NCBI RefSeq assembly: GCF_005311025.1
Contig: NZ_CP031747.1
Coordinates: 2,478,954-2,542,953, forward strand
Direction of reading: 5' to 3'
Source of the DNA: Alcaligenes faecalis
GTDB lineage: Bacteria > Pseudomonadota > Gammaproteobacteria > Burkholderiales > Burkholderiaceae_B
Length of the DNA stretch: 64,000 nt
In this document: piece by piece, positions 59,467 to 64,000 of the stretch
How positions within the stretch are numbered: the stretch's first letter is position 1
Layout: every line of letters starts with the position of its first letter
Translations under genes and position numbers: made by a program
The notes under the pieces: model-generated
The model's database searches: none
Seen by the model: only the letters and a program-made list of their open reading frames with translations
Told to the model about the DNA's origin: nothing

Positions 59467-60135
59467 ATGGCTGCCAATCCTTATAAAAAACGCGAACCCA
59501 ATATCCGTGAACAAGTCTACGGCATGCTGCGCCAGGACATTGCCTTGGGCAAAATCGGTTTTGATGTGCGGCTGGTGGATAACGAAATTGCCGCCAGCCT
59601 GAATGTCTCACGCATGCCGGTGCGCGAAGCCTTGCTGCAACTGAAAAACGAAGGGGTGCTGGAAGGAACTTCGCGCGGTTTTGTATTGCGGGTCTACACC
59701 GCCCAGGATATTGAAGATATTTTCTCGGTGCGCCTGTTGCTGGAGCCACCAGCCGCCAAGCTGGCCTGCATGAATCAAAGCAGAGTGGGCATGCTGGCCA
59801 TGGAACAGGCCCTGAGCCGCATTGAAGCCACGCATCAGCAGGGCGACCCTATCGACAATATTCAGGCCAACTGGGCGTTCCGCAGCGCCTGGATCAGCAT
59901 GGTGCCCAACAAGCAACTAGTCGATACGATGGCGCGCCTGCATGATCAGGCTGATCAGGCCCGGATTGCCTGCTTGCAAGACCCTCAATTCCGTCTGGAA
60001 ACCATGCAGCGGGCCAAGGGGATTTGTCAGGCTTTCAGCGAGCGTCAGGAAGAGCAGGCGGCCCATCTGATCATGGAAAATCTGGTCATTTGCTGCTCGG
60101 CTTACTGCCTCAAGCAGGCGGAGCTGCTGGCTTAA
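59467..60135 (+). CDS. GntR family (FCD type) regulator
   Basis: A 222-residue regulator. The N-terminal winged helix contains IREQVYGMLRQDIALGKI and LNVSRMPVREALLQLKNEGVLEG, followed by an FCD-type all-helical ligand domain (about 80-215). The start MAANPYKKRE at 59467 was preferred to a start eight codons upstream. It is convergent with a Bug receptor gene and near an acyl-CoA ligase gene, which it may regulate through a palindrome at 61591. Confidence 0.9.
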   Translation: MAANPYKKREPNIREQVYGMLRQDIALGKIGFDVRLVDNEIAASLNVSRMPVREALLQLKNEGVLEGTSRGFVLRVYTAQDIEDIFSVRLLLEPPAAKLACMNQSRVGMLAMEQALSRIEATHQQGDPIDNIQANWAFRSAWISMVPNKQLVDTMARLHDQADQARIACLQDPQFRLETMQRAKGICQAFSERQEEQAAHLIMENLVICCSAYCLKQAELLA

Positions 60136-60322
60136 TGATTCAGCATAAGCAGGAAGCAGCAAGGCAGGCTGTGATTGCCGCCGCCGATGCTTCCTGCTTA
60201 AGCACCGGCAATATAAAGCCCCGGCTGTAACCCATAGACAAGGTTTAGCCCTTCAGCCCAAGCAACTGTCTTGTGTGTTGAAGACAGTGTCCCCTCATGA
60301 TTCCGGACAGCCCACACACAAC

Positions 60323-60349
60323 AAAAAAAGGCGCCGTAGCGCCTTTTTT
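60323..60349. terminator. Bidirectional terminator between GntR and Bug genes
   Basis: GGCGC pairs with GCGCC around CGTA, flanked by seven A on the left and six T on the right. The position between convergent genes fits both transcripts. Confidence 0.85.
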
Positions 60350-60366
60350 CTTCAAGCCATCACGTC

Positions 60367-61323
60367 TTAGTCCAGCGTGATTTCCAGAGCCTTGATGGTT
60401 GGTCCCATGGCTTGAGCATCGTGCTCGATCAGGTCAGCAAACTCTTTGGGCGTGGAAGGCTCGATCTGGATACCGAAGTCCACGAATTTCTTGACCACTG
60501 CATCCTCTTTCAGGACAGCCGTCAGTTGCTCGGTCAGGCGGGCTACGTCTTCATCAGGCGTACCAGCTTTGGCCGAAATACCCCACCAGATGGTGAATGC
60601 CACATTGGGGATACCGGCTTCGGCAATGGTAGGCACATCTGGACGCAGAGGGCTGCGCTCCGTTGTCGCTGCGGCAATCGCGCGCAGGCGGCCATCTTCC
60701 AGGAAGCCACGGCTGCCCGTCAGCACGTCAAAGATAAAGTCGATCTGGCCGCTGACGGCATCAATCAAAGCGGGGCCTGCGCCCTTGTAAGGCACGTGCA
60801 CCAGACGAGCGCCGGTCTCTTTACGCAGCATCTCGCCCAAAAGATGAGTGCCCGTACCCATACCAGGCGAACCGTATGTCAGCTCCTGCTTCTGGCCAGC
60901 TGCAACCAGATCCTGAACCGTCTTGAAGGGGCTGTCTTTATTGACCAGCAGGAACACCGGCGCCTTGGCAGCCAGCGTCATGGGGATCAGGTCGGTAGCC
61001 ACGTCGTAATTCAGACGTTGGTACAGGTGGCGGTTCAAGGAGTAAGCACCGCTATCGGCCAGGAACAACACCGTACCCAAGGAGCTGGGGTTGGCGTTTT
61101 TCACCACGTTCATGGCAACCTGGGCACCCGCACCCGGGCGGTTTTCCACAATGACTTTCTGATCAAAGCGTGTGCCCATTTCCTGGGAAATCACCCGCGC
61201 CAACTGGTCAGCCGCACCGCCCGGTGGGTAAGGCACAACCAGCGTCACATTCTTGTTTTGAGCATGGGCCTGTGCACCCAACATCAGCGCACAACACGTT
61301 GCTAATTTAAGCCATACCTTCAT
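60367..61323 (-). CDS. Tripartite tricarboxylate transporter (Bug) receptor
   Basis: Periplasmic Bug-family receptor, 318 residues, with the signal peptide MKVWLKLATCCALMLGAQAHA. The family start VTLVVPYPPGGAADQLARVIS, the loop ENRPGAGAQVAMNVV and HVPYKGAGPALIDAVSGQIDF are present. No membrane subunits are nearby. It is divergent from the acyl-CoA ligase gene and convergent with the GntR gene, so it may deliver the acid used by that ligase, or serve as a sensor. Confidence 0.92.
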   Translation of the reverse strand: MKVWLKLATCCALMLGAQAHAQNKNVTLVVPYPPGGAADQLARVISQEMGTRFDQKVIVENRPGAGAQVAMNVVKNANPSSLGTVLFLADSGAYSLNRHLYQRLNYDVATDLIPMTLAAKAPVFLLVNKDSPFKTVQDLVAAGQKQELTYGSPGMGTGTHLLGEMLRKETGARLVHVPYKGAGPALIDAVSGQIDFIFDVLTGSRGFLEDGRLRAIAAATTERSPLRPDVPTIAEAGIPNVAFTIWWGISAKAGTPDEDVARLTEQLTAVLKEDAVVKKFVDFGIQIEPSTPKEFADLIEHDAQAMGPTIKALEITLD

Positions 61324-61679
61324 TGTTCTATCCCCGTTGCCCCTGTGGGCTTATTCAAAGTCATTGTGAAGCACATTGGCTCAAACACGTGAGCCTGGCC
61401 TGCTTGTTGCTGATCGACTGTCGTCCATAAACCTGATCAACCGTCTTGCTGGCCATCCTGCTCCGGCCTGCAAAACGCCCCCTTTTCTGTCCTTGCTCCG
61501 CCCCTGGTTTGCGCGAAATACCACTGCCTGGTGAGCTCTGCTACTTCGGGTTTTTCCGGTGAAGGACAGGAATTTCAAAATAATATATTGCAGTATACTG
61601 TTTGTAGGATATTAGTAATTTCACCCATGCATATCGGCTTGCCGCCTTGATCGCGCGTTGGCCGGGAGACAGATAGATC
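61324..61679. promoter_or_regulatory. Divergent control region between Bug receptor and acyl-CoA ligase genes
   Basis: A 356-base gap without a supported gene. Its centre (61571-61625) is markedly AT-rich. The perfect palindrome CAGTATACTG lies at 61591-61600 and contains TATACT (61594-61599), a good -10 hexamer for the rightward ligase gene. The core GTATAC fits operators of FCD-type GntR regulators. Confidence 0.5.
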
Positions 61680-63296
61680 ATGCACGCCCATTCCATTCCT
61701 GCTTCTGAATTGCCGCTGTTTTCAATACCTGCCACGCAACGCACGGTACCCGCCCTGTTGCGCCTGCGCGCAGAGCGCATGGGTGATGCTCCGCTGTTTT
61801 CAGACCGCAACACTCACTACACCGGCCAGCAAACCTTGCAGACGGCCGCTGCCAGTGCCAGTCGATTGAGCCGCGCCGGTATCAAACGTGGCGACCGTGT
61901 TGCCTTGCTGTGCACCAACCGCCACGAATTCCTGGATATGGTTCTGGGTTGCGGCTGGCTGGGCGCGATTGTGGTGCCTATCAATACGGCCTCGCGCGGG
62001 GCGCAGTTGCAGCACATCTTGTGCAATAGCCAAGCCAGTTTGCTGGTAGTGGAAACGGATCTGACGCCGCTGCTGGCCGATGTGGACCTTGGCGCTACCG
62101 CCGTCCAGCAAGCCTGGTTGATTCAAGGCCAGGAAGCGGCACAAACACTGGCGGTGAGCACCTGCGATCTGCCTGCTTTGGGCGATTACTGCGAGCCTGC
62201 CGATATAGGCCCCGGCGATACGCTGGCCATTCTGTACACCTCCGGCACCTCGGGCCCTTCCAAAGGCGTCCAGTGCCCGCACGCCCAGTTCTACTGGTGG
62301 GGCATTTACACCGCCAGCAAGCTGGGCATGAAGCCCGATGATGTGCTGTACACCTGCCTGCCCATGTTCCACACCAATGCCTTGAACACGTTTTTCCAGG
62401 CTCTGGTCAGCGACGCCTGCATGGTGGTGGACAAGCGTTTCTCGGCCAGCCGTTTCTTCGACAATCTGTATGAAACCGGCGCCACGATTACCTATCTGCT
62501 AGGCGCAATGGTGCCTATCCTGCTGTCCAAACCTGAGACGGCGGCAGAGAAGCTGCACAGGACGCGCATTGCATTAGGCCCCGGTGTTCCCGAGCAATTT
62601 CATAGCCAGTTTCTGGAGCGCTGCCGCATGCATCTGCTGGATGGCTTTGGCTCTACCGAGACCAACTATGTCATGGGCCGCGGCATTCAGGAACAGCGCA
62701 ATGGCTATATGGGCCGTGTGTCGGAAGGTTTTGAGGCTCTGGTCGTGGATGAGCACGACAACCCCTTGCCAGACGGTGAAGTGGGCGAACTGTTACTGCG
62801 CGCCGATGAACCCTACGCCTTCGCGCTGGGATACTACGGTCAACCGGACAAGACAGTCGAAACCTGGAAAAACCTGTGGTTCCACACGGGTGACCGCGTC
62901 GTGCGCGATGCGGATGGTTACTACCGCTTTGTGGACCGCCTGAAGGACATGATTCGCCGTCGTGGTGAGAACATTTCCTCCTACGAAGTCGAGCAGGCTT
63001 TGGCCAGCCATCCTGCGGTCCATACGGTTGCTGTCTATGCCGCCAAGTCCGAGCTGGCCGAAGACGAGGTCATGGCCATGATTGTGTTGCGTCCGGATTG
63101 CACGGTCAGCTGCGAGGAGCTGCTGCAGCATTGCGAGCGCCGTCTGCCCTACTTTGCGGTGCCGCGCTTTATTGAGTTTGCCCAGGTCTTGCCCACCACG
63201 GAAAATGGCAAGATTCAGAAGTTTGCCCTGCGTGATCGCGGCATTGGTCCCGACACCTGGGATAGAGAAAAAGCAGGCTATCAGGTTCGCCGCTGA
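61680..63296 (+). CDS. AMP-dependent acyl-CoA ligase (CaiC-like)
   Basis: A 538-residue adenylate-forming ligase resembling crotonobetaine/carnitine-CoA ligases and medium-chain ligases. The P-loop AILYTSGTSGPSKGVQ lies at about 182-197, GFGSTETNYV in the middle, LWFHTGDRVVRD and RRRGENISSYEVE at the hinge, and the catalytic Lys in TTENGKIQKFALRD. It probably activates an imported carboxylate. Twenty-one bases separate it from the thiolase-fold gene, so they form an operon. The substrate is unknown. Confidence 0.92.
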   Translation: MHAHSIPASELPLFSIPATQRTVPALLRLRAERMGDAPLFSDRNTHYTGQQTLQTAAASASRLSRAGIKRGDRVALLCTNRHEFLDMVLGCGWLGAIVVPINTASRGAQLQHILCNSQASLLVVETDLTPLLADVDLGATAVQQAWLIQGQEAAQTLAVSTCDLPALGDYCEPADIGPGDTLAILYTSGTSGPSKGVQCPHAQFYWWGIYTASKLGMKPDDVLYTCLPMFHTNALNTFFQALVSDACMVVDKRFSASRFFDNLYETGATITYLLGAMVPILLSKPETAAEKLHRTRIALGPGVPEQFHSQFLERCRMHLLDGFGSTETNYVMGRGIQEQRNGYMGRVSEGFEALVVDEHDNPLPDGEVGELLLRADEPYAFALGYYGQPDKTVETWKNLWFHTGDRVVRDADGYYRFVDRLKDMIRRRGENISSYEVEQALASHPAVHTVAVYAAKSELAEDEVMAMIVLRPDCTVSCEELLQHCERRLPYFAVPRFIEFAQVLPTTENGKIQKFALRDRGIGPDTWDREKAGYQVRR

Positions 63297-63317
63297 TGGC
63301 TGCCACAGGAATTCAAT

Positions 63318-64000
63318 ATGACGCCTAATTTCAATCTGGACACAGTACGCCTGCTGGGCGCGACCGAGGTCACCTACACCCGGCGTGGTCAGTTGGGCAC
63401 GTCCGAGCTGCTGGCCCAGGCTTTCAAGCAGTCTCTTGCTGCAGCAGGTCTGAAGGCCAGCGATATTGATGGTCTGGGGGTAGCCTCCTTTACCCATGCA
63501 CCGGATCGGGCTATTGATCTGGCCTGGAAGCTGGGCTTGAAGGTGGGCTGGATCATGGATGACAGCAATGGCGGCGCCAGTGGTCTTAATATTCTGCAGC
63601 ACGCTATTCGTGCGGTACAGGCGGGTGATGCCCGCTGTATTGCGATTGTGGCCGGGGATCATTTTCAGGCCAAGGACTTCCAGCAACTGGTCGAAAACTA
63701 TAACCAGACAACTTACGATCATTTGCGACCTTTGGGCGCGGGCAGTCCGAATCATCGCTTTGCCATGCTGACGGCGAATCAAATGCGCAAGCTGGGTTTG
63801 GAGCGAGAGGACTACGCAGCTCTGGTGATGCGCCAGCGGCTATGGGCCAGCATGAATCCGGGTGCTGCGTATCGCAGCCCCATGAATCTGAATGATTATT
63901 TGAATGCGCCTCAAGTGGCAGATCCTTTGACGCGGCTGGATTGTGTGCCGGTGGTGGATGGAGCCAATGCCTTGATTGTGATGCGCGCGGATCATCCGGC
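63318..64000 (+). CDS. Thiolase-fold protein lacking the nucleophilic Cys, 3' end cut by window edge
   Basis: At least 227 residues of a thiolase/SCP2-thiolase family protein, open at the right edge, with AGGA before the ATG. The N-terminal region (TSELLAQAFKQSLAAAGLKASDIDGLGV) is typical of the family. Where thiolases have Cys-Ala-Ser-Gly, this protein has Gly86-Ala-Ser-Gly (DDSNGGASGLNI), so it cannot be a classical thiolase. Cys-less members include Ltp2-type retro-aldolases that need a DUF35 partner. It is co-transcribed with the acyl-CoA ligase. Confidence 0.85.
   Translation, partial: MTPNFNLDTVRLLGATEVTYTRRGQLGTSELLAQAFKQSLAAAGLKASDIDGLGVASFTHAPDRAIDLAWKLGLKVGWIMDDSNGGASGLNILQHAIRAVQAGDARCIAIVAGDHFQAKDFQQLVENYNQTTYDHLRPLGAGSPNHRFAMLTANQMRKLGLEREDYAALVMRQRLWASMNPGAAYRSPMNLNDYLNAPQVADPLTRLDCVPVVDGANALIVMRADHP

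Follow-up and report, generated by a model that had tools for sequence, protein, structure and literature searches.

What reaction is left to a thiolase-fold protein whose catalytic cysteine is gone? The question is raised by a gene set at the right end of a 64,000-nucleotide stretch of Alcaligenes faecalis DNA, hereafter the window (contig positions 2478954–2542953 of a 4.2-Mb single-contig genome). An initial annotation had described there four genes, for a GntR regulator, a Bug receptor, an acyl-coenzyme A (CoA) ligase and a Cys-less thiolase-fold protein, and had proposed that they serve the side-chain degradation of an imported acid; all four are found at positions 59467–64000, the last of them running on past the edge. 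This interpretation is supported in its checkable parts, namely the Cys-to-Gly replacement, the DUF35 gene and the kinship to the retro-aldolases Ltp2 and Sal. Three points can be added to it: a likely substrate, which is an oxidised auxin catabolite rather than a steroid or carnitine; a paralogue in the genome's own auxin-degradation (iad) locus; and a changed active-site motif, YDDY.

In an alignment with L051 and L052, two thiolases of this genome that keep their Cys, Gly86 of the window protein occupies the position of the nucleophile: the three active-site motifs read NGGASG, YDDY and GQA in the window protein, NACSGG, HDAF and GHP in L051, and NACATG, HDCF and GHP in L052. The His of HD(A/C)F is replaced by Tyr282 and that of GHP by Gln330, and the third residue of the former motif is Asp284. 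All 28 aligned relatives share Gly85, Gly86, the stretch Tyr282-Asp283-Asp284-Tyr285-Pro286 and Gln330. No Cys located elsewhere takes the place of the nucleophile, an eventuality envisaged in the initial annotation: Cys209 is a separate residue in both true thiolases, and Cys377 is not conserved. A thiolase-type enzyme lacking this Cys cannot perform thiolysis in the usual way, and both hallmarks of a degradative thiolase, the nucleophilic Cys and the GHP His, have given way here to Gly86 and Gln330. Those of the Ltp2/Sal type are present, i.e. the fold, the Gly in place of Cys, the Tyr of a YDxY/F motif and a DUF35 gene alongside; the second catalytic residue known in these enzymes (Cys304 in Sal, or Tyr344 together with the YDHF His in Ltp2) is not kept, Asp284 being found in all 28 sequences. 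Among the 92 distinct sequence strings gathered from all loci, which include two readings of a single gene from the genome's own iad locus, 85 combine Gly with YDDY, two Gly with YDDF and three Gly with YDAF, the remaining two, which have Cys and either HDAF or HDCF, being the true thiolases. Three distant relatives from the window's family (L113–L115) have Gly at the nucleophile position and YDAF, and retain the His at the GHP site; Bug-like genes lie downstream in L113 and L114.

The DUF35 gene predicted just beyond the right edge of the window does exist. Reading the genome past this edge (L003) shows that the complete thiolase-fold gene spans L003:5272–6432 and that its stop codon overlaps the ATG of the DUF35 gene (TGATG). 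Pfam detects only zf-ChsH2 in the encoded protein, the ribbon of which (Cys-x2-Cys-x10-Cys-x2-Cys) is invariant in 22 of 22 sequences; the OB half is visible in the modeled L005 orthologue (mean predicted local distance difference test score, pLDDT, of 94.3), which matches 6ok1_B and 9myr_B, and also the DUF35 subunits of PhlABC and of benzoylsuccinyl-CoA thiolase. For the thiolase-fold protein itself, the best PDB chains by sequence are those of Ltp2 (6ok1) and 9myr. The fold points to the same structures: with the L005 orthologue, which is 95% identical and was modeled by AlphaFold2 at a mean pLDDT of 87.9, a Foldseek search of the PDB ranked Sal–Shy(DUF35) first and Ltp2–ChsH2(DUF35) second of 1283 matches, with template-modelling scores by query length of 0.86 and 0.83, respectively, which bears out the kinship to Ltp2-type enzymes put forward initially. 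By comparison, the window protein is very probably a DUF35-dependent retro-aldolase of the Ltp2/Sal kind.

A clue to the substrate comes from a second gene set in the same genome (L050, 2684000–2702999, around 2.69 Mb), which carries a 39%-identical paralogue with, likewise, Gly and YDDY. Besides this protein, it encodes a nitrilase-like protein, an isatin hydrolase, a reductase, the α and β subunits of a Rieske oxygenase, a ligase, a DUF35 protein, an SDR and TRAP transporter parts. We take it to be an iad locus with an IadCDE-like oxygenase, since the α subunit of the latter matches 9o71, the structure of IadDE from Variovorax paradoxus CL014, at 602 bits, and the PF04199 protein matches the isatin hydrolase 5nmp at 462 bits. 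A gene for IorA (80% identity) lies at 2706127–2708334, about 9 kb from this isatin hydrolase. Loci of the iad type have an average prevalence above 0.95 in Alcaligenes (PMC9613470). Also on record in A. faecalis, strain ATCC 8750, are seven genes (AFN_v2_0075–0081) that include an oxidoreductase, an acyl-CoA ligase, a thiolase and a DUF35_N protein and are up-regulated under carbon-limited nitrifying conditions (PMC11160463); their content fits the iad set of reductase, two oxygenase subunits, ligase, aldolase, DUF35 and SDR.

According to PMC12633357, Variovorax mutants lacking iadF, iadG, iadH or iadI accumulate a compound of formula C10H9NO4, assigned to dioxindole-3-acetic acid, and deletion of iadG, whose product is named a ketothiolase by annotation, significantly lowers anthranilate production; the compounds found downstream are C8H7NO2, C8H7NO3 and C7H7NO (PMC12633357), formulae that fit dioxindole, isatinic acid and an aminobenzaldehyde, respectively. 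The β-hydroxyl of dioxindole-3-acetic acid is tertiary, which closes the molecule to ordinary β-oxidation. A retro-aldol step would explain both why this tertiary alcohol is activated with CoA and why an isatin hydrolase travels along. If so, IadG is probably an aldolase too. As for IadH, annotated as an alcohol dehydrogenase, annotated single SDR genes and single tblastn hits (e.g. L057 13158–14414, L058, L059 and single hits in L090–L110) show DUF35 joined to an SDR in iad loci from Alphaproteobacteria and from further genomes in the window's family; this suggests that IadH carries a DUF35 part, the two being separate genes in Alcaligenes.

The neighborhoods of related genes point in the same direction. 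A scan of named genomes yielded 40 loci (36 from Burkholderiales by record title), in which genes were mapped by open reading frame calling from codon-position GC content and by tblastn; the window-type loci total 43 (the window's own, L005–L044 except L038, and L054–L056, the last three chosen from plasmid hits before their neighbors had been seen), several being cut by contig ends. Outside the genus, the complete set most closely related is that of L007 (ligase 74%, aldolase 65%, Bug receptor 68% and GntR 61% identical), in which the same five genes are followed directly by an isatin hydrolase (452 bits to 5nmp) and then IorA. An isatin hydrolase occurs in eight of the 43 loci (L007, L011, L015, L017, L024, L044, L054 and L055), against 0.1 expected by chance; this expectation derives from 32 strong isatin hydrolases in the 219 Mb covered by 61 genomes from the window's family and assumes 17 kb per locus, the family-wide density and independence, with no correction for kinship. 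Other genes present are IorA (nine loci), a 3-hydroxyanthranilate dioxygenase-like gene (six) and a DLH-SnoaL fusion (17). One of these loci, L055 on plasmid pLRE138 of Rhodococcus erythropolis R138, holds an isatin hydrolase-like gene, a thiamine pyrophosphate enzyme, an ABC transporter, the YDDY aldolase, DUF35 and the ligase, along with genes for an aldehyde dehydrogenase and for the cleavage of 3-hydroxyanthranilate; on the face of it, this is an entire pathway starting from dioxindole-3-acetate.

The association with isatin hydrolase also appears at the genome level. In a profile search of the 61 genomes (thresholds above 350 bits for isatin hydrolase and above 370 bits for an aldolase of either clade), 24 have a strong isatin hydrolase, and every one of these is included in the 26 that have an aldolase (Fisher 5e-15, kinship uncorrected). 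The aldolase motif was read in the fetched sequences, that of G010 being YDDF. Three quarters of these aldolase genes (24 of 32) lie within 12 kb of an isatin hydrolase; those placed in the tree belong to the iad clade, four being unfetched. Within the genus Alcaligenes, nine of ten genomes have both aldolases, and the tenth has neither of them and no isatin hydrolase. In a tree of 73 rows, 29 were labeled as having an isatin hydrolase, 30 as lacking it and 14 were unscored (L087 among them); window-type and iad-type aldolases form separate clades with a support of 100 each, and the label changes at least six times over all scored rows and at least five times inside the window clade (37 scored rows, seven with and 30 without), several long branches weakening the finer branching.

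These data lead us to favor, with some reserve, dioxindole-3-acetate as the substrate. On balance, we lean towards a pathway in which this acid is imported, activated with CoA and cleaved to isatin and acetyl-CoA by the window set. The Bug receptor, which presumably binds the imported acid, would deliver it, and the GntR protein would de-repress the operon in its presence; the ligase, as expected from its family, would convert the acid with ATP to the CoA thioester; and the complex of the Cys-less thiolase-fold protein with DUF35 would carry out the retro-aldol cleavage of the β-hydroxyacyl-CoA, a role supported by sequence, fold and gene pairing. In Sal, which has a Gly at the nucleophile site, Tyr302 is the base and Cys304 of YDCY, near Gln347 and Gln352, the acid, these roles being played in Ltp2 by Tyr294 of YDHF and by Tyr344 (PMC12329534). 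By comparison with Sal, Tyr282 would be the base that takes the proton of the β-hydroxyl, the oxygen of which would be held by the backbone of Gly86, while Asp284, at the site of Cys304, may protonate the acetyl-CoA enolate. From the genome context, the products of dioxindole-3-acetic acid would be isatin and acetyl-CoA, isatin then being handled by two enzymes encoded in the iad region some 154–164 kb away, the isatin hydrolase and an IorA-like oxidoreductase.

A broader proposal, to which we give slightly less than even credence, is that the YDDY proteins are a third, non-steroidal kind of thiolase-fold aldolase with Asp as second catalytic residue, which would convert dioxindole-3-acetyl-CoA to isatin and acetyl-CoA; IadG would be the aldolase, partnered by the DUF35 part that goes with IadH, IadI the isatin hydrolase, and the window set a stand-alone module for scavenging dioxindole-3-acetate. 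If true, this may correct a published step of the auxin pathway, would make Gly, YDDY and DUF35 together a marker for such pathways, and would provide a new variant of the fold of interest as a biocatalyst. Searches of the literature, the results of which were in part examined by title, turned up no report of such an aldolase and no paper on a CoA ester of dioxindole- or oxindole-acetate; among the titles listed, PMC12633357 and PMC10374108 alone dealt with auxin.

Several observations weigh against dioxindole-3-acetate. (i) The literature covered reports activity for no YDDY protein. (ii) The two aldolases of the genome share only 39% identity, and since a ligase and an aldolase are already encoded in the iad locus, a second set suggests either a different substrate or redundancy. 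(iii) The window gene lies 154 kb from the nearest strong isatin hydrolase of its genome, and 35 of the 43 window-type loci have none in the examined stretch. (iv) The compound placed after IadFGH is C8H7NO2, not isatin, and the step is called reductive (PMC12633357); a retro-aldol reaction would give isatin directly, which reduction by the SDR would then convert to dioxindole. (v) A genome-wide search of the 28 genomes behind 30 window-type loci without an adjacent isatin hydrolase, L041 being left out, found a strong one elsewhere in 11 (including G068, which also holds that of L007, and G076, which holds that of L024) and a 231-bit hit in one, leaving 16 without a hit above 100 bits, 14 of them with zero match. 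Thirteen of those 16 carry the DLH-SnoaL fusion in the aldolase locus (L012, L013, L018, L023, L026, L027, L030–L033, L037, L039 and L042), accompanied by an SDR2-type gene in 12 of the 13 (none was detected in L026). None of the 13 genomes with only a DLH-SnoaL locus has an isatin hydrolase match, versus nine of the 13 in which no DLH-SnoaL is shown (Fisher 0.0005, or 0.001 without G068 and G076, kinship uncorrected); G079 and G084, which have both kinds of locus, have an isatin hydrolase. Two explanations offer themselves: DLH-SnoaL takes over the part of isatin hydrolase, or the loci that carry it act on some other compound. The window set sides with the isatin hydrolase group, since its genome has an isatin hydrolase and no full DLH-SnoaL match (the best scores 119 bits over positions 11–229 of the 412-residue query).

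A less probable reading is that the same DUF35-dependent retro-aldol chemistry acts here on another β-hydroxyacyl-CoA, e.g. derived from a ring-substituted dioxindole acetate or from a non-indolic aryl hydroxy acid. Such a substrate would explain why the set is retained beside the iad copy, and agrees with the divergence and separate clades of the two aldolases, with a receptor and a regulator proper to the set, with a palindrome that, in its 17-mer context, occurs once in the genome, and with the 13 of 28 related genomes that combine DLH-SnoaL in the locus with no isatin hydrolase. The isatin hydrolase and IorA genes that follow in L007, the closest complete relative, and the recurrence of isatin hydrolase in eight of the 43 loci speak for dioxindole-3-acetate instead. 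That the protein is a degenerate or re-purposed thiolase devoid of C–C lyase activity (acting as a decarboxylase or hydrolase, or serving DUF35 as a structural partner) is improbable: the silence of the literature covered on the activity of the YDDY subfamily would accord with it, as would the case of TbSLP, for which PMC12329534 describes only a very slow decarboxylation of malonyl-CoA, but the active-site residues are invariant in 28 of 28 sequences, ligase and DUF35 genes recur alongside, and loss of iadG, the presumed counterpart, affects anthranilate formation as described above (PMC12633357).

The least probable reading, to which we give hardly any credence, is that the ligase makes carnitinyl-CoA and the aldolase cleaves it to betaine aldehyde and acetyl-CoA: carnitine is a β-hydroxy acid and the ligase had been called CaiC-like, but, while it is indeed an AMP-forming acyl-CoA ligase, its match to the crotonobetaine/carnitine-CoA ligase CaiC (NCBIfam PRK08008) reaches only 287.7 bits for a cut-off of 651, it passes PRK06155 ('ATP-dependent acyl-CoA ligase') instead with 811.6 bits for a cut-off of 722, and the genes that recur nearby in relatives are, among others, those for isatin hydrolase, IorA and 3-hydroxyanthranilate conversion, although no search aimed at betaine genes was made; for these reasons this substrate was set aside. 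A steroid side chain was likewise rejected: the initial annotation had suggested looking to the right for acyl-CoA dehydrogenase or MaoC genes, and the eight flanking proteins scanned comprise neither of these nor any other β-oxidation enzyme. This absence is consistent with a substrate acid that carries a β-hydroxyl from the start.

The features of the locus are collected in the table below.

Table. Genes and candidate regulatory site of the window set (window numbering unless otherwise stated; aa, amino acids).
Feature	Position	Strand	Basis and remarks
GntR family regulator, FCD subclass, 222 aa	59467..60135	+	Pfam GntR + FCD; start ATG 59467
Bug/TctC periplasmic solute receptor	60367..61323	-	Pfam TctC, 184.5 bits; divergent from ligase
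Perfect palindrome CAGTATACTG, candidate GntR operator	61591..61600		80 bp before ligase ATG, in the divergent promoter region
AMP-forming acyl-CoA ligase, 538 aa	61680..63296	+	Pfam AMP-binding + AMP-binding_C
Cys-less thiolase-fold protein, 386 aa	63318..64000, on to window-equivalent 64478	+	Pfam Thiolase_C_1
DUF35/Zn-ribbon subunit, 100 aa	L003:6432-6734 = window-equivalent 64478-64780		zf-ChsH2, 24.1 bits (cut-off 23.2)

The GntR and Bug genes reported beside the ligase and thiolase genes are recovered by their Pfam domains. The GntR gene, for which GTG 59443 is a possible alternative start, holds the same position in L005, L006, L007 and L118; the Bug receptor is 98% identical in L005 and L006 and 68% in L007, and the aldolase gene shares 95% identity with its counterparts in Alcaligenes sp. 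SORT26 and A. pakistanensis. The palindrome CAGTATACTG is kept in four of four aligned Alcaligenes intergenic regions, with partly diverging flanks, and a GntR operator is the natural guess. Within the window, AGTATACT occurs only at this site (61591–61600), and it was not found in L007. An operator common to the window set and the iad locus is not supported: the 17-mer around CAGTATACTG has a single exact copy in the genome and seven matches at three mismatches, the reversed control giving one match. Upstream, the set is flanked by genes for a LysR protein, a DAO-type oxidoreductase and an acyltransferase. On the 3' side of the DUF35 gene, about 0.9 kb without a likely gene precedes a convergent TRAP transporter (DctM, DctQ and DctP), beyond which lie a HAD hydrolase and an ABC-type auxiliary lipoprotein; neither an oxygenase nor an isatin hydrolase gene of the iad type stands beside the window set.

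How does this set compare with known systems? It resembles IadF–IadG–IadH of Variovorax paradoxus in bringing together a ligase and a thiolase-like protein (PMC12633357). Variovorax IadG is matched to the window protein by locus content only, and the iad system differs in having its own oxygenase and isatin hydrolase and, in the window's genome, an aldolase of a separate clade with 39% identity. The IpfD–IpfE–IpfF system, in which IpfF is the CoA ligase and IpfE the DUF35 partner, follows a comparable three-gene logic and acts on a ring-oxidised aryl acid. The thiolase encoded by ipfDE releases propionyl-CoA during ibuprofen degradation by Rhizorhabdus wittichii (PMC9195938). Ltp2–ChsH2(DUF35) of Thermomonospora curvata (6OK1) shares with the window protein the Cys-less thiolase fold, the DUF35 partner and the motif Tyr, and differs by YDHF and a second Tyr, Tyr344, where the window protein has YDDY. 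In our reading, Gln330 of GGQLSAGQ corresponds to Sal Gln352 and to the site of Ltp2 Tyr344. The likeness extends further in the steroid side-chain aldolase Sal–Shy(DUF35) of Comamonas testosteroni (9MYR, PMC12329534): thiolase fold, Gly for the nucleophile, DUF35 partner, Tyr in a YDxY motif and the two Gln of a GGQ...GQ stretch. The differences are Asp284 at the site of the catalytic Cys304, a DUF35 subunit that in the window set is a separate 100-residue protein with a C4 rather than a C3H1 ribbon and is not fused to a MaoC hydratase, and the substrate, a steroid for Sal and a predicted small indolic compound for the window protein.

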